Shown here piece after piece: positions 383 to 23,853 of a DNA stretch of 23,853 bases (the first letter of the stretch is position 1; each line of letters starts with the position of its first letter). The translations under genes were made by a program, and so were the position numbers. This stretch comes from a virus: the IMG/VR virus record IMGVR_UViG_3300010410_000008, positions 1 through 23,853 of that record; one strand, 5' to 3'. The notes beneath the pieces are model-generated. The model was not told the origin of the DNA. It ran no database searches and was given only the letters and a program-made list of their open reading frames with translations.

Positions 383-2272
383 ATGAAGTGGCTACATTTA
401 TCGGATTTACATTTTAATCCTGTACATGATGGAACTGACACAAAATATATGCGCGAAAAACTGAAGGACTTTTTACTTAAAAGAGAAGTCCAAGTCGATA
501 AAATTTTTTTGACGGGGGATTTTAGAGATGCTAGCCGACAAGAGGATTCTGATGAAAATGCGGAGAAAGCAGTTCAGTATATCCATGAGATTTCAGAAAT
601 TGTAGGAATCGTGGATTATGAGAACATTCTCTGTGTTCCAGGGAATCACGATTTAGATCGAAATAAAAATGACCGGCAAGAACTAATATGCAAAACTAAA
701 AAGTCATACAGGACCAAAGAAGGCACCTTCGAAAATACATCAGTTTTGGTAGAAGCGTTTACGTTTTATAAGCGAGTATTAATTCAGTTATATGGTAAAG
801 AGTACACGGAACGTCTTTTTAATACTTATAAAGTAAATCCTCAAAGAATTTATCATTACAACGATTGTAATATTATGACGATGAACACTGAGTTGTTTGC
901 GGGAGAAATTGTGACAACAGGTGATGGGGGAAAAAAAGAAAATGATGCAGGAACAATGATAGTTGGTAGCAATTACGTGTTTTCATCGCTTTTTGAGATG
1001 AAGCAGACTGGCAATCCAACTATTGTTTTGGGACATAGAGGTTTGGATTTATTTGAATCAACCGAACGAAGGAAACTCCTTAGTATATTCAGGGATAACA
1101 ATGTTTGTTTGTATTTGTGCGGGCATAGTCATGATTTGTGGTATGAAAAAAATGGAGAAATCCCGCAAATTACTGTTGGGTGTATTAAAGAAGCCGAGGG
1201 GGCAAAGGCAGGTTTTACAATAGGAGAGTTTTGCCCTGAAAAAAACAATATCAAAATTACTGCTTTCACGTGGGATAATAATAATTGGAATGATTATTCC
1301 CATTTCTCGGAGCATGGTTCAACTTTAATTTTTGATATTTCTCAAAACGGGTTATTAACTGGTTCGAACTTTCCACTGGCTATCAAAATTGTGATAGATG
1401 GAAGAGTACGTGAATTTAACTGTCGGGTTCCTGAAAATGGGATGAAGTTTGGTGTGAAGCATTCGCCGATGATGTCTGTTGGTACAGGGGATTTGATGTG
1501 TGTAATAAGAAATAATCAATACTCAGATTTAATTACATATAATCACAGATTTATTTTATCAAAGGCCATTTGGGAAGTAATTGGAGTAGATACTACAACT
1601 CCCGGAGTTACGAAATTGACATGTAAACGGAAATTAAAAGGTCCATATGATGATTTGGAATTAAAGATTTCAGGGGTTAATCAAATTTCAAAGTTCAAAA
1701 TCGAATTGTTTGTACCTATTGATAATATAGGCCTAGGTCAACAAATGAAATTTACCCCTTATTTGATTAGAGATATAAAGCATATTAAAGATGCCAAATT
1801 ATGTGTTAGTGTCGCTGATGAAAGTGTTTTAGCTTATAACGGAATAAATATTACTGGTGTATTCTTAGGGGAGACAGATATAACTGTTTATTGGGACGAT
1901 GATAAAGAGATTTGTGAGACTTTTCATGTAGTAGTTGTCAGTGAACCAGTTTCGAATACTTTCTATCGAGTTTATAAACAAGATATTAAATTTAACAATA
2001 AATCATACTTTGATTTCAATGTTATAACGTGTAATGATGTACATTTTGGCATTGAAAAGTATGTGAATTGTGGATTAACTGATATGGATAAAACTTTCAG
2101 TTTTTATATTAAAAGAATTAAAGATGAAGCATTAATTCCTGTAAGACCCGAGGGTAATAGTGAAATTAAGGTCAAAGGTTCAAGCTTGGATATAGGTGAA
2201 AAATATATACTAATAATTACAGGCGAGAAGAGGTCAATGCAATTTGAGTTTAAAGGTTTGGGTCTATTTTAA
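383..2272 (+). CDS. Calcineurin-like metallophosphoesterase with unknown C-terminal region
   Basis: The 629-residue protein opens with the metal-binding motifs of the calcineurin-like phosphoesterase superfamily: DLH (Asp8, His10), TGD (Asp46), GNHD (87-90), then a GHRG and a CGHSH motif near residues 220-250. The N-terminal 300 residues should be a dinuclear-metal hydrolase; the substrate (nucleic acid, nucleotide or phosphoprotein) cannot be read. The remaining 330 residues are unfamiliar and look beta-rich, with no membrane segment or signal peptide, so the protein is probably cytoplasmic. It is on the strand opposite to the phage genes, has its own promoter, and is conspicuously richer in A and T than the phage genes. 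It lies between the rumA-like end and the recombinases, so it may be element cargo (lysogenic conversion or defence) or a host neighbour; the first is slightly preferred. Confidence 0.85.
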   Translation: MKWLHLSDLHFNPVHDGTDTKYMREKLKDFLLKREVQVDKIFLTGDFRDASRQEDSDENAEKAVQYIHEISEIVGIVDYENILCVPGNHDLDRNKNDRQELICKTKKSYRTKEGTFENTSVLVEAFTFYKRVLIQLYGKEYTERLFNTYKVNPQRIYHYNDCNIMTMNTELFAGEIVTTGDGGKKENDAGTMIVGSNYVFSSLFEMKQTGNPTIVLGHRGLDLFESTERRKLLSIFRDNNVCLYLCGHSHDLWYEKNGEIPQITVGCIKEAEGAKAGFTIGEFCPEKNNIKITAFTWDNNNWNDYSHFSEHGSTLIFDISQNGLLTGSNFPLAIKIVIDGRVREFNCRVPENGMKFGVKHSPMMSVGTGDLMCVIRNNQYSDLITYNHRFILSKAIWEVIGVDTTTPGVTKLTCKRKLKGPYDDLELKISGVNQISKFKIELFVPIDNIGLGQQMKFTPYLIRDIKHIKDAKLCVSVADESVLAYNGINITGVFLGETDITVYWDDDKEICETFHVVVVSEPVSNTFYRVYKQDIKFNNKSYFDFNVITCNDVHFGIEKYVNCGLTDMDKTFSFYIKRIKDEALIPVRPEGNSEIKVKGSSLDIGEKYILIITGEKRSMQFEFKGLGLF

Positions 2273-2341
2273 CATTTGATTATAAAGAAAAATTGAATTT
2301 ATATACTTCGAATATAGTTTACATAGAATCAACTCTGGGAC

Positions 2342-2378
2342 AAAAAAAGGCACCCTACGCTGTAATCATGTAGAGTGC
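2342..2378 (-). terminator. Terminator of the recombinase operon, possibly bidirectional
   Basis: Read on the minus strand, GCACTCTAC (2378-2370) pairs with GTAGGGTGC (2358-2350) over 9 bp with one U-G wobble. The loop is 11 bases, and the stem is followed by C and seven T. It sits 17 bases past the TAG stop of the last recombinase. In the plus direction the same stem is followed by a weaker T-rich stretch and could also end the phosphoesterase transcript. Confidence 0.8.
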
Positions 2379-2394
2379 TTTGAATATTTTGGGA

Positions 2395-3963
2395 CTATGC
2401 TTCTGTATCCACCGTCAATCCAGATTTGAATTCTACAGTGAAATTGTCCTCAAAGACTGTGACCTTCTCAATCAATCTCCGAACCAGAGCCTCATCATAT
2501 TCAGCTATGGAGGTTGGTTGTTCCTTCAGGAATGAGCTCATATCGGTGATACGTTTTCTGACTTCATCTTTCCCAGCGCTTTCCGCTTGGATTTTCTGTT
2601 TCTCATCGCGCAGATTGTGGATTTCATCACCAACATCCTCGTACTCTGATTTACTGTTGGCCAGTTTAAGCAGTTCGATTTGTAGTTGCTCTAGACGCTT
2701 ATCAATTTTTGTTAGAGCCTGATTGTTATCCTGGCTTATTACCGCTGCAATATTATCTTCAAGAGTGGATAGGAAGGCATCCTTCTTGCCCAGTGTTTCA
2801 TTGATGGCCTTAACAATGACCTCCTCAATTGTACTCTCTTGAACAGTTCGGGCATCGCAGAAGAGGCCGGTGTTTTCAAGCCTGCTGACGCATCGCCAGA
2901 CGATGGATTTCTTACCTCGGTTGTTCCAGTGGACCCTACGGAATATCTCACCACAAGTGCCGCAGATAACGATTTGAGAAAAGCAGTGGGTGCTGCTAAA
3001 AGTTCTTTTTTTACCACTGGGGCTGGTATGAACGACTCGGCGGCGAACAAGTTCTTCTTGCACCTGCATGAAAATTTCACGCGGGATGATGGCTTCATGA
3101 TTGTTTTCTACATAATACTGCGGGACGAGACCATTGTTTTTGACCCTCTTCTTTGAGAGAAAATCAACGGTGTAAGTTTTCTGAAGGAGTGCATCTCCAA
3201 TGTATTTTTCATTTCGCAGAATCTGGTTTATGTTGCTGGAGTACCATTTTTTTCTACCTGCACCGTTTCGAATACCATCCGCTTCTAAACCTCGAGCAAT
3301 CTTTTGCATGCTGGCGCCTTCGAGATATTCTCGGTAGATGCGCTTTACAACCTCTGCTTCTTCTGGAACAATGACAAGTTTCTTATTCTCATCTTTAGTG
3401 TAACCCAGAAACCATCTGCAGTTGATTTGAACTTCTCCTTGTTGGTAGCGATACTGAAGGCCCATCTTAACGTTCTGGCTTAAGGATTGGCTTTCTTGCT
3501 GCGCGAGGGAAGCCATAATGGTGAGCATGACCTCGCCTTTGGAATCCATCGAATTGATATTTTCCTTTTCAAAGAATACTGCGATGTTCTTATCCTTAAG
3601 CTTGCGGATATATTTTAGGCAGTCCAGGGTATTCCTAGCAAATCGACTGATGGATTTGGTAATGACCATGTCAATGCTGCCTGCCATGCATTCATCAATT
3701 AAGCGGTTGAACTCTTCACGTTTCTTAGTGTTAGTTCCTGATATGCCGTCATCTGCAAATATCCCTGCAAGCTGCCAGTCGGGATGACCGTTAATGAATG
3801 CTGTGTAGTGCTCGATTTGGGCTTCGTAGCTGGTGGCCTGCTCTTCGCTATCGGTGGAGACTCTGCAGTAAGCGGCTACGCGTAGCTTTGGTTTTTCTTC
3901 ACCTTTATTCCTGCGTGAGTGTTTTCTGGCCGGAATGATTGTTACATTTTTACTGACTTCCAT
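2395..3963 (-). CDS. Large serine recombinase, third gene of the trio
   Basis: This site-specific recombinase of the large serine (resolvase/invertase) family is expected to integrate or excise the prophage. The N-terminal resolvase domain contains YCRVSTD with the nucleophilic serine (Ser36 from the start used here) and the later motif SRFARN. A recombinase domain, a zinc ribbon with CGTCG and two further cysteines, and a coiled-coil-like Glu/Lys/Gln-rich segment follow. ATG at 3963 is preferred over the in-frame ATG at 3969 because the GGAGG ribosome binding site is 9 bases away from the former but only 3 from the latter. The 5' end overlaps the preceding small gene by about 14 bases, implying coupled translation. 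One oddity: the usual PYGY signature of the recombinase domain is replaced by WFLGY. Confidence 0.92.
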
Positions 3964-4381
3964 TTTCATTCACCTCCGTTGCTATTAAACTGTAGGCGTA
4001 TTCTGCCTGCTTAAATGGATCATCAAATTGTTGAGATCCTTTTCTGAAATGAAACACAGTGGGGATGGGCATCTCACTTTGTTTTGTTTTTTCACGGATG
4101 CGACCCAGTTTCTCAGCTCTTTTGAAACGTTCTTCCTGAACTGCTGAGAAGGTTTCAAGATCAATGATTGCAGGATAAAAGGTATCTCCGACATATCGCT
4201 TATTTTTCAGCATGTTGCCTATTCCAGCATGAAAGGCTTTTATGTCAGCATCTTTAGCAGCGGCTGATAAGGAAGCACCTGATAGATATGACTTGAATAA
4301 CATTTTTACTTGTATTGAAGCCTCTTCATTAATAACCGCTTTTCCATTTTCAATTTTGTAGCCATAGGGCGTATGTCCCAT
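3950..4381 (-). CDS. Recombinase-domain protein lacking the serine catalytic domain
   Basis: The 143-residue protein starts directly at the motif that opens the DNA-binding recombinase domain ([13 protein letters not shown]) and ends with a basic, charged region. The whole catalytic resolvase domain with its serine is absent, and so is the zinc ribbon. It aligns in order with residues about 170-300 of both flanking recombinases (for example NKRYVGDTF here against NEKYIGDAL and NEKYTGDAI there). Its ATG follows directly after the TGA of the upstream recombinase (TGAATG), and its 3' end overlaps the next one, so all three should be made together. It cannot catalyse strand exchange; a DNA-binding accessory or directionality role is an inference. 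It does not look like a recent pseudogene, since the frame is clean and the coupling intact. Confidence 0.85.
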
Positions 4382-5944
4382 TCATTTCACCAACCTTTCT
4401 TTCAGGGTGGTACCGCATTTTAAGTGGAATCCAATCTCTGAGCGTGAGTAGACAATAATGTGATCCACAAAGCGACCAAATAAATCACTATCAAATTCTG
4501 ATAACATGGCCGATTTGCTTGTAAAGCGCAGAAGCTTATTGACCTCTTTGGCGGTCTTATCGTCGCTGTTTAACAATCGAATCCAGGAGTCCTTTTGCTG
4601 CTGTAATTGTTCATTTTCCTGCAACAGCTCGTTATTTCCTTTGTTGTAAACCGGTGGGTCAAGATAGCCTTTAGTCATGAGGCTGACAAGTACCTTTTGT
4701 TGCTCTGCATTTTCTTCTAGTTTCTTATCAATTTCCTGGATGACTGCCATGCTATCTTTGGCATTGACACCTTTTAGACTATCGAATAAAGGCTTCAGTA
4801 TTGTCTTGTGGCCAAAGATAAGTTTGTTCATCATAGTGGTAAAAGCATATTCAATGCTAAAGTCAGATATAGATTTCATTGAGCACTGGTCAATATCTGA
4901 AATATGAGTTGAGCAAGACCAGACAATCTTACGTTTGCCACTAGTCAGAATTTTTCTCTTAAATTTTCCACCGCACTCTCCACAGATGATTTTGCCTGAA
5001 AAAGGATAGCGGTTCATGTATTTGGAATGATTCTTTTTAACGCCTTTTTCTTTGCCTGATTGTTCTATGATGGCCTGTGCGGATTCAAAATCCTCATGGC
5101 TGATGATGGTTTCATGATGATTTCTGAATAAGTACTGATCTTTCTCCCCAGCATTAATATGTCTGTTGAAGGAGCTGTCAGTGTAGGTTTTTTGGAAAAT
5201 GGCATCACCGGTATATTTTTCATTACTGGCCATGCCACGAATGGTTGTTGATCCCCAAATAACATTTCTTTTAGTTGGAACCCCACGTCGATTCAACTCA
5301 TCCGCAATTTTCTGTGTGCCTTTTCCAGACAAAATTTCAGTGAAAATGAATCGGACTATTTCTGCTTGAGCCTTGTTAACGATTAGCTTTCCATCAACTG
5401 CATCATAGCCATAGGGAGGGCTGGAAATCTTGTAGGTCCCATTCTGAAATCGCCGTTTTATAGACCACTTGTTATTTTCTGAAATAGAAGTGGATTCATT
5501 TTCAGCCAGCCCACTCAGGATTGACAGCATGAGTTCGCTTTCCATTGAGCCGGTATTAATGTTTTCCTTCTCGAAATAAATGAAGATGCCATGGCCAGTC
5601 AGCTTTCTGACAAGTTCCAAACAGTCAGTGGTATTTCTGGCAAATCTACTGATAGACTTGGTTACAATGAAGTCAATTTTCTTATCTTCGCAATCAGAAA
5701 TCATTTGAAGCAGCTCGGGCCTTTTTTCTTTTTTGGTCCCCGTAATTCCCTCATCGTAATACACGCCAGCAAGATCCCAATCCGGATTTGCCTTGATATA
5801 GGATTCATAGTGCTTAATCTGTGTATCGAGGCTTTGAAGTTGATCGTTAGAGTCTGTAGAAACCCGGCAATAAGCTGCGACGCGAAGCTTTGAATGTTTC
5901 CGATAATTATCTGGAATTTGATTGATTTTTGTTACCTTTTTCAA
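4382..5944 (-). CDS. Large serine recombinase, first gene of the trio
   Basis: The 520-residue serine recombinase has YCRVSTD with the nucleophile Ser29, SRFARN, a recombinase domain starting at PPYGYDAVDGKLIVN, a zinc ribbon (CGECG with a later C-x-C-type pair) and a C-terminal coiled-coil region. The start is TTG at 5944, not ATG: AAGGAGG ends 9 bases upstream of it and no nearer start exists. It is the first of three overlapping or abutting recombinase genes, as in systems where two serine recombinases are needed together, such as the CcrA/CcrB pair of SCCmec. Its sequence is clearly related to, but well diverged from, the 2395-3963 gene, so the two are not recent duplicates. Confidence 0.92.
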   Translation of the reverse strand: MKKVTKINQIPDNYRKHSKLRVAAYCRVSTDSNDQLQSLDTQIKHYESYIKANPDWDLAGVYYDEGITGTKKEKRPELLQMISDCEDKKIDFIVTKSISRFARNTTDCLELVRKLTGHGIFIYFEKENINTGSMESELMLSILSGLAENESTSISENNKWSIKRRFQNGTYKISSPPYGYDAVDGKLIVNKAQAEIVRFIFTEILSGKGTQKIADELNRRGVPTKRNVIWGSTTIRGMASNEKYTGDAIFQKTYTDSSFNRHINAGEKDQYLFRNHHETIISHEDFESAQAIIEQSGKEKGVKKNHSKYMNRYPFSGKIICGECGGKFKRKILTSGKRKIVWSCSTHISDIDQCSMKSISDFSIEYAFTTMMNKLIFGHKTILKPLFDSLKGVNAKDSMAVIQEIDKKLEENAEQQKVLVSLMTKGYLDPPVYNKGNNELLQENEQLQQQKDSWIRLLNSDDKTAKEVNKLLRFTSKSAMLSEFDSDLFGRFVDHIIVYSRSEIGFHLKCGTTLKERLVK

Positions 5945-6283: not shown

Positions 6284-6329
6284 TCAAAAAACAAAAATAG
6301 CCGCTGGGTCAAAGAAGGCTCCCAGCGGC
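6284..6329 (-). terminator. Intrinsic terminator after the amidase gene
   Basis: On the minus strand a perfect 9-bp GC-rich stem GCCGCTGGG (6329-6321) with CCCAGCGGC (6308-6300), separated by a 12-base loop, is followed by TATTTTTGTTTTTTG. It begins 11 bases after the amidase stop at 6341, and is the strongest terminator in the window. It separates the lysis genes from the recombination operon. Confidence 0.9.
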
Positions 6330-9788: not shown

Positions 9789-12059
9789 TTAATTTCCTGA
9801 AACACCTAAATTCCTGACTGTAACGGTGTTCTGATTCCACTGAAGCTGGGCAATCACCCGGGTTAAGATATTCCCATCAATAGTCAGTGGAATGGTAACA
9901 TCAAAGATTGCTCCTTCAGAACCATTAAAGGATCCTGATACTTGAGAGTTCAGATCCAAATCAAAATCTGTTGGAATGGCTCCTTGCATATCTTTTTCCA
10001 CACCACTCATAGCTTCAGAAAAACCTTCTCCGATGCCTTCACCCATATTGGAACCAATACCGGCAAAGACTCGTGATGGAGAATGAATCCCGAGAACATT
10101 TTTGACTCCTTTGACAATGCCGCCGACCATGCTATCTACCTTGTTTTTAAGCCAGCCAATCATGGATGAAATCCCATCCCATAAACCTCTAGAGATATTC
10201 TTGCCCACATCCATCATGGATGGAATGGCACTTCCTAGTCCCGTTACAATGGCTGTAATTATCTGAGGAAGCTGGGCTACCAGCTGCGGTATCGCTTTAA
10301 TAAGTCCCGCAGCAAGCTGGATGGTTAGCTGCACACCAATCTCAATAATCTTTGGTAGGTTGCTTGTTATGAAAGTGATGATGCTGTTGATAATTTGTGG
10401 CAATGCTTCTATCAAAGTAGGGAGAGAGTTTAGTAGTCCCTGCGACAATCCACTGATAATTTGAAAAGCTGCATCTAGCACCAAATCAAGATTATTGATC
10501 AGCGTCTGAGCAATAAGAATCACCGCTTCAACGATAGACGGGATCAATTCAGGGAGCGCTTCACCAAGGCCAGTGGCCAGGGTTACGATCATCACGAGGG
10601 CTGCTTCCACAAGAGCCGGTAGATTTGTAATAATGCCGTCTACTAAAGTGAGCACCAGTTGAAGTGCACCATCTGTAATCTGTGGTAGGGCCTCAATGAG
10701 CCCGCCCACGATGGTCATGATAATATTGTTTGCCGCTTCAATAAGTGTAGGCAGATTATCTAAAATACCATTCACAAGAGCAAGAACTAAATCCGGTGCC
10801 ACTTCAGCAATGGCAGAAATGAGTCCTGTCACCACATCTAAAATCTGCGGCAGGATTACGGCAATCTGTTCTACCGTTTCTCTTGCCCCTTCTTTAAGTT
10901 GTTCTGCAGCGCCTTCCTGTCCAGTAATTAGACCCGTTAAGCCATCAAGGACCATCGTGAAGCCTGGTAGAAGCTGAGAGGTTATGTTGTTTTTTACGCC
11001 GGCAAAGGAGCGGGTGAGATTATCCATGGCATCCGTATAATTGACAGCGGCATCAATGGATTCATCACTCATTACCAGACCCAGTTCACTGGCTTTATTC
11101 TTAAGAGCATCCGTGCTTTCTGCAGTCTGGTTCAAGAGCGCTCCAAGTTCAACAGATGATGTGCCGAGTAGGTCGTTGGCAATAGCCGCTTTTTCACCTT
11201 CATCGGAGATGTCTTGTAGGCCTCTAATGGTCATATCGAAAACTTCTTCACGGGATTTGCCTTGAAGATCTTCCATTGAAATGCCAAGGCGCTGAAACTT
11301 TTCAGTGGCAGATGAGCTTCCATTGATGGCATCATCTACGGTGCTGTTAAGTTTTTTCATTCCAGTTTCTAAAGATGAGACACTGGCGCCGTTTTGAGAA
11401 AGTACATACTCCCATTCCTGATATCCTTGTCTCGAAAGACCCAGTCGTTGACTGGCTTTATCGACTTCATCTCCCGCAGCGGCTGCATCATTTGCCATAT
11501 CATATAGTTTTTTTCCTGCACTTACTGCTGCGGTTCCAATGGCAGCCATTGCAACACCGATACCTGCGGCTACACCTTTCATAACAGACCCTAGTTTTTC
11601 AAACTTATCACTGGAATCATTTGCTACTTTCGCTGACTTTTTAATTTCATCTCCAAACTTGTCAGCTTCTTTACCTGCATCTCCAAATCCATCACTGGAT
11701 GTATCAAGAGCTTTATTATTATCATCAAGCTCCCGTTCCATCTTGTTAAGATTTGCATTGGCGTTATTTAGCTGAATCTGCCATGCTTTGGTTCGTTTAT
11801 CATTCTCTCCGAAGGATTCGGCGGCATTTTTAAGGGCAGATTCTAAAGTGCCAATTTTACTCTTTTGGGCATCAATCTCTTTATTTAAAACTTCATTTCG
11901 TGCAGTTACTGCTTGTAGGGATTTGTCCTGCTTGTCGAACTGAGATGTGACCAGTTTCATTTCAGAGCCTAACACTTTAAAATCTCTATTGATCTCTCTA
12001 AGTGAATCCTTAAATTCACGTTCGCCTTCAACACCGATTTTCAGACCAAAATCTGACAT
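9789..12059 (-). CDS. Tail tape measure protein
   Basis: The 756-residue protein sets tail length and is ejected with the DNA. It begins with a coiled coil (about 30-120), then a Gly/Ala-rich hydrophobic stretch (about 160-182), an EYVLSQNG-type region conserved in Firmicute tape measures, and eight 22-residue hydrophobic helical repeats (436-611). The typical end region has GLWDGISSMIGWL and GIHSPSRVFAGIG. At the rule of thumb of 0.15 nm per residue it predicts a tail of roughly 110 nm. No lytic domain is seen. AAGGAGGTGA precedes the ATG. It is the gene after the frameshifted chaperone, as in lambda-like tail modules. Confidence 0.95.
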   Translation of the reverse strand: MSDFGLKIGVEGEREFKDSLREINRDFKVLGSEMKLVTSQFDKQDKSLQAVTARNEVLNKEIDAQKSKIGTLESALKNAAESFGENDKRTKAWQIQLNNANANLNKMERELDDNNKALDTSSDGFGDAGKEADKFGDEIKKSAKVANDSSDKFEKLGSVMKGVAAGIGVAMAAIGTAAVSAGKKLYDMANDAAAAGDEVDKASQRLGLSRQGYQEWEYVLSQNGASVSSLETGMKKLNSTVDDAINGSSSATEKFQRLGISMEDLQGKSREEVFDMTIRGLQDISDEGEKAAIANDLLGTSSVELGALLNQTAESTDALKNKASELGLVMSDESIDAAVNYTDAMDNLTRSFAGVKNNITSQLLPGFTMVLDGLTGLITGQEGAAEQLKEGARETVEQIAVILPQILDVVTGLISAIAEVAPDLVLALVNGILDNLPTLIEAANNIIMTIVGGLIEALPQITDGALQLVLTLVDGIITNLPALVEAALVMIVTLATGLGEALPELIPSIVEAVILIAQTLINNLDLVLDAAFQIISGLSQGLLNSLPTLIEALPQIINSIITFITSNLPKIIEIGVQLTIQLAAGLIKAIPQLVAQLPQIITAIVTGLGSAIPSMMDVGKNISRGLWDGISSMIGWLKNKVDSMVGGIVKGVKNVLGIHSPSRVFAGIGSNMGEGIGEGFSEAMSGVEKDMQGAIPTDFDLDLNSQVSGSFNGSEGAIFDVTIPLTIDGNILTRVIAQLQWNQNTVTVRNLGVSGN
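10227..10754 (-). repeat. Eight tandem 22-residue (66-base) repeats inside the tape measure gene
   Basis: From residue 436 the protein can be cut without gaps into eight units of exactly 22 residues, such as LPTLIEAANNIIMTIVGGLI+EA, LPQITDGALQLVLTLVDGII+TN, LPALVEAALVMIVTLATGLG+EA, LPELIPSIVE..., LDLVLDAAFQ..., LPTLIEALPQ..., LPKIIEIGVQ... and IPQLVAQLPQ.... Consensus: LPxLIEAAxQIIxxLVxGLIxA. The DNA copies have diverged, so this is an old expansion. Confidence 0.85.
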
Positions 12060-12084
12060 ACTAAATCACCTCCTTCAGGGCATG

Positions 12085-12107
12085 AAAAAGACACCTTTAT
12101 AGGTGCC
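12085..12107 (-). terminator. Terminator-like hairpin before the tape measure gene
   Basis: On the minus strand GGCACCT (12107-12101) pairs with AGGTGTC (12096-12090) over an ATAA loop, with one G-U pair, and is followed by TTTTT. It starts 17 bases past the frameshift-product stop and 25 bases before the tape measure ATG. With no promoter visible downstream it may act as a partial terminator that lowers tape measure expression, or as an mRNA 3'-end stabiliser. Confidence 0.6.
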
Positions 12108-12123
12108 GATTAAGATATTGTTG

Positions 12124-12327
12124 TTATAAAAATTCTGGGATAATGTCATCGATATAGTAATTTATTTTTGGTTTTGAAATACCAATGAACTGTTTGTGGC
12201 ATTCCCAAAGATCCATCAGATAGCCAATAGGCATCAACCACACCTCATCTTCGCTGCGCATCAAATGGACTGTACCGTAATAGATAAGTCGGGTAAAGAC
12301 CTCCTGATCACTTACCCGACTACCTCG
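12124..12327 (-). CDS. Extension of the tail chaperone made by -1 frameshifting (GT-type)
   Basis: In the -1 frame relative to the chaperone gene, 67 codons are open after the slippery site and end at TAA 12126-12124. The product begins RGSRVSDQEV, continues with stretches such as FTRLIYYGTVHLM and IGYLMDLWECHKQFIG, and ends DDIIPEFL. It has no start codon or ribosome binding site of its own that would fit, but it is compositionally protein-like and fills the otherwise unexplained space before the tape measure gene. Joined to residues 1-132 of the chaperone it gives a 199-residue protein, analogous to lambda gpGT, whose T part binds tail subunits while the G part coats the tape measure. Confidence 0.85.
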   Translation of the reverse strand, partial: RGSRVSDQEVFTRLIYYGTVHLMRSEDEVWLMPIGYLMDLWECHKQFIGISKPKINYYIDDIIPEFL

Positions 12328-12333
12328 TTTTTT
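12287..12333 (-). promoter_or_regulatory. Programmed -1 frameshift signal: slippery heptamer plus stem-loop
   Basis: In the zero frame (TCA AAA AAC) the heptamer A AAA AAC occupies 12333-12327. After a 5-base spacer comes a perfect 10-bp stem, AGTCGGGTAA (12321-12312) with TTACCCGACT (12296-12287), enclosing a 15-base loop that contains AGGAGG. Slippery site, spacer length and stem all match the classical -1 signal. The zero-frame TAA lies inside the stem. Confidence 0.85.
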
Positions 12334-12722
12334 GAGTCTTCACTCTCCACATTTCTCATTGTGCCCTTCATCATGCTGGCCATAATCGCATTTTTGTAGC
12401 CCGCCAGATCAAATGGGGTGGTAAGAAGTTCGACTTCTTCCTCAGTGAGCAACTCCTTCTTGTCATTTTTATTCTTGATGTTATGAATTTGGATGGATTG
12501 GTTGGAGAGAAGGGTGATGAGCCACACTACCTCTGCAAGGGCCATTTCAAAGTTCTCTGTCTTCATTAGTTTTTCGCCTAAGTTTTCAAGCCCGCCGTAG
12601 CGCCCAGCAATTTCTTTTGTTGCTTTTGTGGTAAGAATCAGTTTGAATTTAGTACCCCCGATTTTAATGGTGGTGCTTCGTTCTTCTGCAGCTTCATTTA
12701 ATATCAATTTTTCTTCTGGCAT
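12312..12722 (-). CDS. Tail assembly chaperone, short form (gpG-like)
   Basis: The 136-residue acidic protein lies between the major tail protein and tape measure genes, the standard place for the siphovirus tail assembly chaperone. Its N-terminal half has a beta-like segment (TTIKIGGTKFKLILTTKAT) followed by helices (LGEKLMKTENFEMALAEVVWLI), as seen in Firmicute TAC proteins. In the zero frame it ends in KNEVVG; a -1 shift at codons 131-132 bypasses this stop. It should bind the hydrophobic tape measure protein during assembly and be absent from the virion. GGGAGG lies 9 bases before the ATG. Confidence 0.82.
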   Translation of the reverse strand: MPEEKLILNEAAEERSTTIKIGGTKFKLILTTKATKEIAGRYGGLENLGEKLMKTENFEMALAEVVWLITLLSNQSIQIHNIKNKNDKKELLTEEEVELLTTPFDLAGYKNAIMASMMKGTMRNVESEDSKNEVVG

Positions 12723-12738
12723 AATTATTTACCTCCCA

Positions 12739-13620
12739 TTAGGATACAGTTACTGTAGCCACTGTTGTAGTTGCATCACTAGCACCAACAAGACTCAGCA
12801 CGCAGTAGTAATAATATGTGTCTGCCACAAGATCAGTTGGGATATCATAGCTGGCAGAGGTTTCTCCATTGATAAGGGTACCGCCTGACGCACTATCGAT
12901 GGTGTTTTCATACCACTGATAAGTTACCGGATCACTGGTATTGGATTCTGCCACCACAGAAAGACTTCCTGTTATGCTGCCGGCTGTAGCTTCAGTCAAT
13001 ATAGCAGGCTGAGTTGTAATTGTAATCGTCGGTGTTACCGGGGTAAAGTCAGGTTCATAGACATTTGTAAACCAGCCGGAGATGGTTTCAGTTGCCACAC
13101 CGTTGTCGCCTTCAGTTACTTCGGCTTTCCAAGGATGTTTGTTTTCGCTGTCCAGTTTATTTCGTCTGAATACCGTACCTTCTATGGTGGGACTGCTGAA
13201 TGTAATGGAATCTCCTTTGGTGGCAAGACTTGTAGCTGGAACGCTGAAAATAACTCTGTAAAGCCAAAAATATCTGTATTTTCCATTGGCCTTCTTAGCA
13301 CGAAATCCAATAGCCACTGGACTTCCGCCATCTTCGCTTCTTGAAACCACTACATTATTGCTGTCAATTTTGCAGCCCGTTAAGTCCTGCGTTACTAGAG
13401 AACCGATATCATCAATTCCCAAGCTCAGTGAACCGCTCTTAAACTCCTTGATTACTTCTGATGCGCCATCATCGGCGTAGAGAATTGCTTCAATAAGTTC
13501 AATGCTTAATTCAGCAGTCATGGCTTTTGCCAGTACTGTGGGTGTGCCATAGGTTTCAATGCCGTTTTGATCTTCTGTGATCTTGGCATAATAAAGACTA
13601 TCTAATCCGATTGTTGCCAT
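12739..13620 (-). CDS. Major tail protein with C-terminal Ig-like domain
   Basis: The 293-residue tube-forming protein has an N-terminal beta-rich domain (about 1-190, from ATIGLDSLYYAKI) of the phi13/TP901-type major tail protein group. It contains the features KANGKYRYFWLYRVIF and VATETISGWFTNVYEP near its end. Residues about 195-293 start with TPTITITTQP and contain TYQWYENT and YYYYCVLSL; they look like one Ig-like beta sandwich of the kind displayed on phage surfaces and capable of weak binding to glycans. The ATG directly follows the TAA of the upstream gene (TAAATG), with GGAGG inside that gene's end. High expression is expected. Confidence 0.85.
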   Translation of the reverse strand: MATIGLDSLYYAKITEDQNGIETYGTPTVLAKAMTAELSIELIEAILYADDGASEVIKEFKSGSLSLGIDDIGSLVTQDLTGCKIDSNNVVVSRSEDGGSPVAIGFRAKKANGKYRYFWLYRVIFSVPATSLATKGDSITFSSPTIEGTVFRRNKLDSENKHPWKAEVTEGDNGVATETISGWFTNVYEPDFTPVTPTITITTQPAILTEATAGSITGSLSVVAESNTSDPVTYQWYENTIDSASGGTLINGETSASYDIPTDLVADTYYYYCVLSLVGASDATTTVATVTVS

Positions 13621-20971: not shown

Positions 20972-22225
20972 CTATTTATTCATAGATGTGTTATTTCTAT
21001 CAGGAAGGTCTTTATAGCAGTATTCTTTGCCATTGCGAAGAAGAAACACTTCATCTGCAGTTTCTGCATTTGAAATGTAGCGTTCAATAATAACATCACA
21101 AAATTTCTCATCTAATTCAATCGTGTTGCAGATCCGATGCGTTTGCTCACAGGCAATAAGGGTGCTACCAGAGCCTCCAAAAGGATCAAGGACGATACAG
21201 TTGCTAAGGCTCGAATTAAGAATAGGGTGGGCCACAAGAGCAACTGGCTTCATTGTTGGATGGGATCCATTCTTCCTTGGTTTTTCAAATTCCCAGATAG
21301 TTGTTTGCTTTCTATCGGCGTACCAGTTATGTTTGCCTTTTTTCTTCCAGCCAAAGAGCACGGGTTCATGCTGCCACTGGTAAGGGGATCTGCCCAGTAC
21401 CAAAGATTGCTTTTTCCATATGCAAGTGCCTGATAGGTAGAACCCAGCGTTGGAGAATGCTTTTCTAAAATTGAGGCCTTCTGTATCTGCGTGGAAGACA
21501 TAGATAGAAGCATCCTGTGTCATCACAGCTTCCGTATTGGTAAATGCAGCTAGTAGGAAATCATAAAAAGCTGAATCGGACATATTATCATTTTTGATTT
21601 TTCCAGCAGACCCTTCATAGTTCACATTGTAAGGGGGATCTGTTACCACGAGGTTTGCTTGCTTTCCGTCCATCAGAAGCGTGAAGGTTTCTGCCTTGGT
21701 GGAGTCACCGCAGACCAGTCTATGGGGACCAAGCTTCCAGACGTCACCCAGTTTTGTCATGGCGGGTTTTTCCAGCTCTGCATCCACATCGAACTCATCA
21801 TCGTGAATGCCTTCCTTCAGGGAATCCTTAAACAGGTCATCCAGTTCAGAAGGATCAAAACCTGTAAGAGAAACATCAAAGTCAGCACCTTGGAGATCAG
21901 CGATAAGAAGGGCTAGCTTATCCTTATCCCAATCGCCAGAAACCTTATTCATTGCAACGTTTAATGCTTTTTCCTGTTCAGTATTCAGGTCTACTACAAC
22001 GCAGTCTGCTTCTGACTGACCCAGGTGCTTAAGCACACTAAGCCTCTGATGGCCTGAAATCACAGTGTTGCTGTTTTTTGCATTAACGACGATTAGTTCT
22101 ACGTACCCAAAATTCTCAATGGAGGCTTTAAGTTTTTCAAACTCTGCATCTCCTGGCTTTAACTCTTTACGAGGATTGTATGCTGCCGGATTCAGATCTG
22201 ACAGTTTTATTTTTTGTATATTCAT
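20972..22225 (-). CDS. ParB-like nuclease domain fused to DNA adenine/cytosine-N4 methyltransferase
   Basis: The N-terminal 100 residues form a ParB/Srx-type domain (LNPAAYNPRKE, SGHQRLSVLKHLG). Residues from about 155 form a beta-class amino-methyltransferase: catalytic DPPY (about 196-199) precedes the SAM-binding VLDPFGGSGST (about 345-355), with an intervening target-recognition region. It should methylate phage DNA at adenine N6 or cytosine N4, probably for protection from restriction or to mark packaging or regulatory sites. ATG 22225 overlaps the HNH stop as ATGA; a GTG at 22234, with AAAGG 5 bases upstream, is the alternative. The SAM synthetase two genes upstream could supply its cofactor. 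Confidence 0.92.
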   Translation of the reverse strand: MNIQKIKLSDLNPAAYNPRKELKPGDAEFEKLKASIENFGYVELIVVNAKNSNTVISGHQRLSVLKHLGQSEADCVVVDLNTEQEKALNVAMNKVSGDWDKDKLALLIADLQGADFDVSLTGFDPSELDDLFKDSLKEGIHDDEFDVDAELEKPAMTKLGDVWKLGPHRLVCGDSTKAETFTLLMDGKQANLVVTDPPYNVNYEGSAGKIKNDNMSDSAFYDFLLAAFTNTEAVMTQDASIYVFHADTEGLNFRKAFSNAGFYLSGTCIWKKQSLVLGRSPYQWQHEPVLFGWKKKGKHNWYADRKQTTIWEFEKPRKNGSHPTMKPVALVAHPILNSSLSNCIVLDPFGGSGSTLIACEQTHRICNTIELDEKFCDVIIERYISNAETADEVFLLRNGKEYCYKDLPDRNNTSMNK

Positions 22226-22830
22226 ATCAAACACATCAACCTTTCTTTTATCAATAAACGAGCTATTTGCCAGTCTCCAATAATTTCATTAACTTTCTTA
22301 CCCTCATGTTCAACAGTTCTATGACATGAGGAGCATAACGTCACAAGATTATGGAGGTCTCTTGATCCATTAGCACTAACTGGAATAATATGATGAACAT
22401 TAAGATTATCTTTAGTACCGCATCGACGACAAACTTGACCTTGTTTGATTGTGGCACTCAATTTATTCCACTCGTAATCATATGGACCATAGGTGCGCTT
22501 TTTTATTGCATTGTTTCGTAGAACTTGAATCATACGGTCACGCTGTTCATCATTATATTCATTCCATCTCAGGGAGGTGGCTTCTCCAATCTTCTTTTTA
22601 GTTTCCTTTGAGTGATAGTCAGAGCCTAGTCTTTTCTTTCGAGCCTTCAATCCTTCACTCACTTTTTTTCTGAAATGAGGGTCTTTATTTTTCTCAACTA
22701 TATCTTTACGTGTTTTTTGCCAGACATTCTGACAGGCAACTGAACAGAAGAAGTGTGATGGAATCTTATGAGCAGCATATCTTCGTGAATTTTCTTTTCC
22801 ACATGTTTCGCAAACGTAGTGAATCTTCAT
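22222..22830 (-). CDS. HNH endonuclease with N-terminal zinc finger and NUMOD-like region
   Basis: The 202-residue protein has three parts. CETC and CSVAC (Cys7, 10, 29, 33) form a zinc finger. A basic segment with DPHFRKKVSEGLKAR and HSKETKKKIGEATSLRW (about 50-90) resembles NUMOD3 DNA-binding repeats of homing endonucleases. The HNH nuclease follows, with C134-x2-C137, His146-His147 and C166-x2-C169-H170. It may nick DNA during packaging, like HNH proteins beside terminases, or be a free-standing homing endonuclease inserted between metK and the methyltransferase. The ATGA overlaps at both ends favour an integrated operon member. Confidence 0.88.
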   Translation of the reverse strand: MKIHYVCETCGKENSRRYAAHKIPSHFFCSVACQNVWQKTRKDIVEKNKDPHFRKKVSEGLKARKKRLGSDYHSKETKKKIGEATSLRWNEYNDEQRDRMIQVLRNNAIKKRTYGPYDYEWNKLSATIKQGQVCRRCGTKDNLNVHHIIPVSANGSRDLHNLVTLCSSCHRTVEHEGKKVNEIIGDWQIARLLIKERLMCLI

Positions 22831-23853
22831 ATCTTTTCACGCTCTTCATAGAATTTTTCTGCCACCTTTCTTAAGTTTAGATTGAAATCCACGTTCTCCC
22901 AAGGGAAGAGAGAGGAATTGAAGTGTCCATAGGTTGCTGTGTCTGAGTAGATTACATTTCTGAGGCGCAGCTTTTCTATGATGGCAGCTGGACGTAAGTT
23001 GAAGATCTCTTTTACCAGTTCAATTAAATCCTCATCACTAATTTTTCCCGTACCAAAGGAGGTCACATTTACTGAAACTGGATTTGCTTTTCCGATGGCA
23101 TAAGAAATAGCGACCTCGCATTTATCAGCAAGCCCGCTCCAAACAATATTCTTAGCAATGTACCTGGCCATATAAGCTCCACTTCTATCAACCTTAGTTG
23201 GATCCTTTCCGCAGAGTGCGCCGCCACCATGCGAAGCCAGACCACCATAGGTGTCCACCATGATCTTTCTGCCAGTCAGCCCGGTATCAGCAGCAGGGCC
23301 TCCTTCAACAAATCTGCCAGATGGATTGATGAGTATTTCGGTGTCATCATCCAGTGGGAAATCCTCAAAGCACTGCCAGAGCACATTATTTAAAATATCT
23401 GATTCTAATCTCTTTTGAGTTTTGTCCTTATGGTGCTGAACAGAAACCACAACAGTCTTAACGCGGATAGGTTTATCTCCGTCATACTCGACCGTTACTT
23501 GGGCTTTGCCATCTGGCAGGATGCCCTTGATTATTTTTCCTTTGCGACATTCATCAATACGCTTTACGATTCTATGAGAGAGAAGTAAAGGTAGAGGCAG
23601 CAGCTCACGAGTTTCATTGGTAGCATAGCCATAAACAGTGCCTTGATCACCAGCACCGATGGAACCATAAGGATCAATAATTCCATTTCTTGCTTCAAGT
23701 GCTGTATCCACACCAGCAGCAATATCTACACTTTGATGATGTACAAACACAAATACTGTAAATTTCCAAGGATTATAGCCCACCTCACGAAGTACATTTT
23801 TGACGATAAGGCGGATGTTGATTTTTTCGCTGCAGGTGATCTCGCCCGCCACG
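22827..23853 (-). CDS. metK: S-adenosylmethionine synthetase (MetK), N-terminus cut by window edge
   Basis: Residues correspond to the protein from about position 55 onward; the first ATP- and Mg-binding segment lies beyond the right edge. Visible family motifs are GAGDQG, LPLPLLLSHRIV, RFVEGGPAADTGLTGRKI, the P-loop-like GGGALCGKDPTKVDRSGAY and SYAIGKANPVSV. It makes SAM from methionine and ATP. The usual GGPxGDAGLTGRKI reads GGPAADTGLTGRKI here: Gly-Asp becomes Ala-Asp and Ala becomes Thr, a change near the active site, though the Asp and Lys remain. It ends in an ATGA overlap with the HNH gene, placing it in the phage operon. The apparent Val start codon at the edge is not a real start. 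Confidence 0.95.
   Translation of the reverse strand, partial: VAGEITCSEKINIRLIVKNVLREVGYNPWKFTVFVFVHHQSVDIAAGVDTALEARNGIIDPYGSIGAGDQGTVYGYATNETRELLPLPLLLSHRIVKRIDECRKGKIIKGILPDGKAQVTVEYDGDKPIRVKTVVVSVQHHKDKTQKRLESDILNNVLWQCFEDFPLDDDTEILINPSGRFVEGGPAADTGLTGRKIMVDTYGGLASHGGGALCGKDPTKVDRSGAYMARYIAKNIVWSGLADKCEVAISYAIGKANPVSVNVTSFGTGKISDEDLIELVKEIFNLRPAAIIEKLRLRNVIYSDTATYGHFNSSLFPWENVDFNLNLRKVAEKFYEEREKI

Follow-up and report, generated by a model that had tools for sequence, protein, structure and literature searches.

The minus-strand stretch 12722–12124 of the viral record IMGVR_UViG_3300010410_000008, of which positions 1 to 23,853 were analysed (the window, 23,853 nt), very probably encodes a tail assembly chaperone of the lambda G/GT type, whose longer product would be made by a −1 ribosomal frameshift. 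The shorter, zero-frame product is referred to here as G, the −1 frame extension as T and their fusion as GT. The positions of the relevant features are given in Table 1.

We re-read the frameshift site from the sequence, and the heptamer, the 5-nt spacer and the 10-bp stem all lie exactly where the preliminary description had placed them. The zero-frame codons AAA (12332–12330) and AAC (12329–12327) are preceded by an A, so the phase of the heptamer suits a tandem −1 slip. The first arm of the stem, AGTCGGGTAA (12321–12312), pairs perfectly with the second, TTACCCGACT (12296–12287). Folding of the RNA from 12327 to 12270 gave −23.3 kcal/mol with a z-score of −4.1, and no shuffled sequence was equally stable. 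When the whole window was shuffled 100 times with its dinucleotides preserved, A AAA AAC with a perfectly paired stem of 9 bp or more 4–9 nt downstream did not occur at all, and any of the scanned slippery heptamers with a stem of at least 10 bp occurred 0.02 times per shuffle. The −1 frame is open for 67 codons and ends with TAA at 12126–12124; the 67 codons and the fusion of 199 residues (132 + 67) proposed earlier were thus confirmed. A search of Rfam found no family for the frameshift stem. One other match of a heptamer and a stem was found in the window, at 6286 on the plus strand, opposite to the strand of the neighbouring genes; it was rejected as a frameshift site, since on the gene strand it reads as an ordinary terminator.

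Table 1. Features of the G/T region and its neighbours in the window
Feature	Position	Strand	Basis
Major tail protein, expected partner of T	12739–13620	−	TIGR01603 maj_tail_phi13, E 1e-24; phrog_88
G, tail assembly chaperone, 136 aa, residues 1–132 common with GT	12312–12722	−	ORF; phrog_2115; fold
Possible Shine-Dalgarno-like stimulator GGAGAGTGAA	12339–12348	−	Energy of duplex with anti-SD; inferred
Slippery heptamer A AAA AAC (P-site AAA, A-site AAC)	12327–12333	−	Sequence; 266/268 homologous loci
Spacer GAGGT, 5 nt	12322–12326	−	Sequence; spacing kept in 121/125 distinct relatives
Stimulatory stem-loop, 10 bp, 15-nt loop	12287–12321	−	Sequence, folding, covariation
Zero-frame stop TAA, top of 5' stem arm	12312–12314	−	Same offset in 264/267 loci
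T, 67 aa and stop, C-terminal domain of the 199-aa GT	12124–12327	−	phrog_10988; dN/dS 0.12, 0.09
Terminator-like hairpin GGCACC-N-GGTGTC and T tract, accessory, outside the shift signal	12090–12107	−	Similar in several relatives
Tail tape measure protein, expected client of the chaperone	9789–12059	−	phrog_58 and others, E down to 1e-64

The preliminary description had proposed to look among homologues for the heptamer, the −1 frame and compensatory changes in the stem, and had taken loss of the first two as grounds against frameshifting. To this end homologues of T were drawn from viral contigs, bacterial genomes and annotated phages; as these searches overlap, the figures count loci, and distinct sequences are stated separately. 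The relatives keep the heptamer and the −1 frame almost without exception. AAAAAAC was present in all 81 loci of the first set and in 266 of the 268 loci with a readable site overall. T, counted from the heptamer, is 69–71 codons long in 265 of 267 loci. In 223 of the 267 a −1 frame stop lies 1–3 codons upstream of the heptamer, and entry into the −1 frame is therefore limited to a few codons. From the first base of the heptamer to the zero-frame stop the distance is 19 nt in 264 of 267 loci and 22 nt in the remaining 3. Of the unusual packing of the stem remarked on earlier, the stop codon is a feature of the family, and AGGAGG in the loop is largely particular to the present phage. A special role for AGGAGG was rejected, as GGAGG is found in the loop of only 5 of 153 distinct relatives and no start codon is usefully placed for it.

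The stem is conserved as a structure, and its covariation and compensatory changes were indeed present in the relatives. At least 9 of the 10 pairs are formed at equal spacing in 121 of 125 distinct site sequences, and the other four carry insertions of whole codons and still form a long stem. Among 31 divergent sequences, 98.7% of the cells were paired, compared with 24–52% when the partner was slid by 1–3 columns, a control that retains the relatedness of the sequences. Cells changed on both sides of the stem numbered 17, compared with 4.1 in shuffles (none of 500 shuffles reached as many), these covariation counts including related sequences and not being probabilities. Three stem pairs showed compensatory change; at columns 18/42, for instance, G-C is replaced by A-U in 7 sequences. 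RNAalifold, unaided, predicted the identical helix.

A few loci depart from the rule. AAAAAAT (L113:1201–1207) and AAAAAAA (L235:1501–1507) stand in place of AAAAAAC; they may be rare natural variants or sequencing errors, an error being a particular possibility for L235. At L187:1107–1674 the heptamer and the stem are deleted and G and T form a single ORF, so that there is no separate G. This single ORF may be genuine or may stem from misassembly; read as it stands, it would count against the G/GT frameshift.

It was also considered whether T is a separate gene with its own internal start, as is implied by hypothetical proteins of 30–60 aa in public records. Such a fragment is usually called in the 12124–12311 interval, so the expectation that a gene caller would leave this interval empty proved wrong. 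In none of the 12 annotated phage stretches examined are G and T joined in one gene, and 11 of them, with a standard G–T junction, show G and a shorter downstream CDS apart, the exception being the intron-bearing L109. The pattern of selection nevertheless makes a separate start very improbable. Over bases 24–75 of T, which in most relatives reach from the zero-frame stop to the first usual start, the −1 frame had a median dN/dS of 0.12, compared with 1.2 and 1.9 for the two other frames, and the value for the −1 frame of the remainder of T was 0.09; these are rough values from the computable subset of pairs, with synonymous sites near saturation. Of the 153 distinct relatives, 128 have no ATG, GTG or TTG before offset 36, and a first start is most frequent at offset 90, preceded by the invariant T residues V7, F13, R15, L16, Y18 and G20. 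By these substitution patterns the −1 frame is under purifying selection upstream of the usual starts in most relatives, and separate initiation fails as an explanation because the selected residues upstream of the starts would stay untranslated. It would also leave the heptamer and the covarying stem unexplained.

Equally small is the chance we give to transcriptional slippage on the run of six A, by which mixed mRNAs would yield the fusion with no ribosomal shift. The run is present in nearly every relative and RNA polymerase slippage on A runs is known in bacteria, but six A is short for efficient slippage. In addition, transcriptional slippage requires neither a covarying stem at a fixed spacing nor the phase of the heptamer, and both fit slippage of the ribosome. 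That the hairpin, stable as it is, should be an intrinsic terminator or attenuator with an incidental overlap of frames can be practically dismissed: there is no T tract 3' of the stem, its position is fixed relative to the heptamer and the stop, the downstream frame shows coding selection, and a separate terminator-like hairpin is present after T.

Ribosomal frameshifting is consequently the reading that we follow here, and its course in the host, including the rate of slippage, is what we infer. Most ribosomes would read G and stop at its TAA. A minority would pause with AAA in the P site and AAC in the A site while the 10-bp stem resists entry, and the P-site tRNA-Lys and the A-site tRNA-Asn would slip back by one base onto AAA AAA. 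The −1 frame would then be read for 67 codons, giving the 199-residue GT, in which the G–T junction would read SKNRGSRV. The stretch GGAGAGTGAA upstream of the heptamer may add to the stimulation. Its mean duplex energy with the anti-SD was −9.7 kcal/mol, compared with −4.1 kcal/mol for control windows of G (93 distinct relatives); a plain SD tetramer is absent in 33 of the 93. The stretch also encodes conserved residues, and this evidence is inconclusive because the motif overlaps the conserved codons.

G matched the PHROG profile phrog_2115, annotated as 'tail protein', with an E-value of 7e-24, and 7 of 55 diverse G homologues matched phrog_183, 'tail chaperone protein'. For structure prediction G and T were folded as separate chains. 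The predicted fold of G (pLDDT 81.5) is a beta hairpin followed by helices, and it matched nine viral predicted structures with E-values up to 0.001; three of these carry the name tail assembly chaperone and another three 'tail tube protein'. In homology or fold, G is similar to tail assembly chaperones. Pfam and NCBIfam have no family for G or T; a weak, non-significant relation to Phage_TAC_11/GTA-gp10 (Pfam) was seen in 2 of the 55 G members, and searches of solved structures, whether by sequence or by fold, turned up no meaningful match. T matched phrog_10988, a PHROG family of unknown function, with an E-value of 1e-25. It was predicted to consist of helices and had no significant match of its own in the fold search or in Pfam. 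The phrog_10988 family thereby gains a likely function: it would supply the T domain that frameshifting adds to the phrog_2115 chaperone.

The gene for G and T sits between that of a phi13-type major tail protein and that of the tape measure protein, and the comparison with lambda made in the preliminary description holds for position, direction of the shift and gene order. Both phages have the order major tail protein, G, T, tape measure protein, with a −1 shift near the end of G, a T stop shortly before the tape measure gene and two products with a common N-terminal part. The end of T is near the tape measure gene, as had been stated, although not immediately before it, since a gap of 64 nt with a terminator-like hairpin lies between them. 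The heptamer of lambda is G GGA AAG and differs from A AAA AAC, which is followed here by a strong conserved stem that holds the G stop codon. Neither lambda G nor lambda T showed sequence similarity to the present proteins in searches with the Pfam and NCBIfam libraries. Of the lambda chaperone, the G part is bound to the tape measure protein and the T part to the major tail protein, with the products made in a ratio of 30:1 (PMC5009743). By analogy, G would bind the tape measure protein encoded by the next gene and the T domain would recruit the major tail protein encoded by the previous one, these roles being transferred on the basis of gene order and family.

The signal itself resembles that of dnaX, which consists of an A AAA AAN heptamer, a short spacer, a stem of 10–11 bp and an SD-like element about 10–14 nt upstream. 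The type of heptamer, the short spacer and the stem are common to the present site and to dnaX-type signals (E. coli dnaX, IS3-family elements), and the SD-like element is possibly so. However, dnaX has A AAA AAG and a shorter shifted product, whereas the present site has AAC as its A-site codon and would give a longer one. From its heptamer and the covarying stem downstream, the site is classed as a putative dnaX-like programmed −1 signal. On E. coli ribosomes, A AAA AAC is reported to shift less readily than A AAA AAG, and it is the g-t site of the haloarchaeal virus HCTV-2 (PMC5009743). The lower shiftiness of this heptamer in E. coli counts against frameshifting in the present case. The family offers a large, well-conserved example of A AAA AAC with a covarying stem on which frameshift rules outside E. 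coli can be tested. One might go further and regard the family-wide position of the G stop inside the stem and the near-exclusive use of A AAA AAC as a tuned module, in which terminating or shifting ribosomes would melt the stem, ribosome traffic would thereby set the G:GT ratio and slippage would follow other rules than in E. coli, where A AAA AAG is preferred; we consider this unlikely.

The principle of tail chaperone frameshifting is textbook knowledge, to which this G/T family adds a further case. Conserved tail-gene frameshifts in dsDNA phages were reportedly surveyed by Xu, Hendrix and Duda in 2004, and tail chaperone frameshifts form the training set of PRFect (PMC10885494). The recoding proposed here is of that kind, again within tail assembly genes of dsDNA phages. 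Among the papers that our literature searches covered, none describes the phrog_2115/phrog_10988 family. Its carriers are phages of Bacillota, including Ca. Heliusvirales, and the Ca. Heliusviridae paper (PMC9226167) is silent on frameshifting and chaperones in its main text. Homologues are also present in the genomes of Anaerotalea alkaliphila and Lacticigenium naphthae. The G/T gene is split in public records of a widespread group of Bacillota phages that includes Ca. Heliusvirales of the gut.

More than 300 nt separate T from the tape measure gene in 36 of 228 relatives, and this junction (12060–12123 in the window) looks like an insertion hotspot. By eye, the translations of the inserted DNA include toxin-antitoxin-like pairs (L060, L254), an AraC-like regulator (L086) and a cysteine-rich protein (L012). 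The hairpin at 12090–12107 may attenuate expression of the tape measure gene or mark the hotspot. In one relative, L114 (IMGVR 15682261; PV036457.1), a group II intron of 2471 nt (1588–4058; Rfam RF00029) that carries a reverse transcriptase gene is inserted within T just 3' of the stem. The insertion leaves the entire frameshift signal intact, and when the intron was removed computationally, the expected T family protein was obtained in the −1 frame, which lends the frameshift reading independent support. With the intron in T, GT of this phage would need both splicing and frameshifting.

Other genes of the window were also noted. Three tandem serine recombinase genes (2395–5944; 524, 143 and 520 aa, the middle one a fragment-sized Recombinase domain) are likely an integration module. 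At the end with the head genes (20972–23852), an S-adenosylmethionine synthetase, an HNH endonuclease and a ParB-N/N6-N4 DNA methylase fusion are found together, and the synthetase possibly supplies SAM for methylation. Beyond the recombinases, at 383–2272 on the opposite strand, lies a calcineurin-like phosphoesterase with a long C-terminal region.
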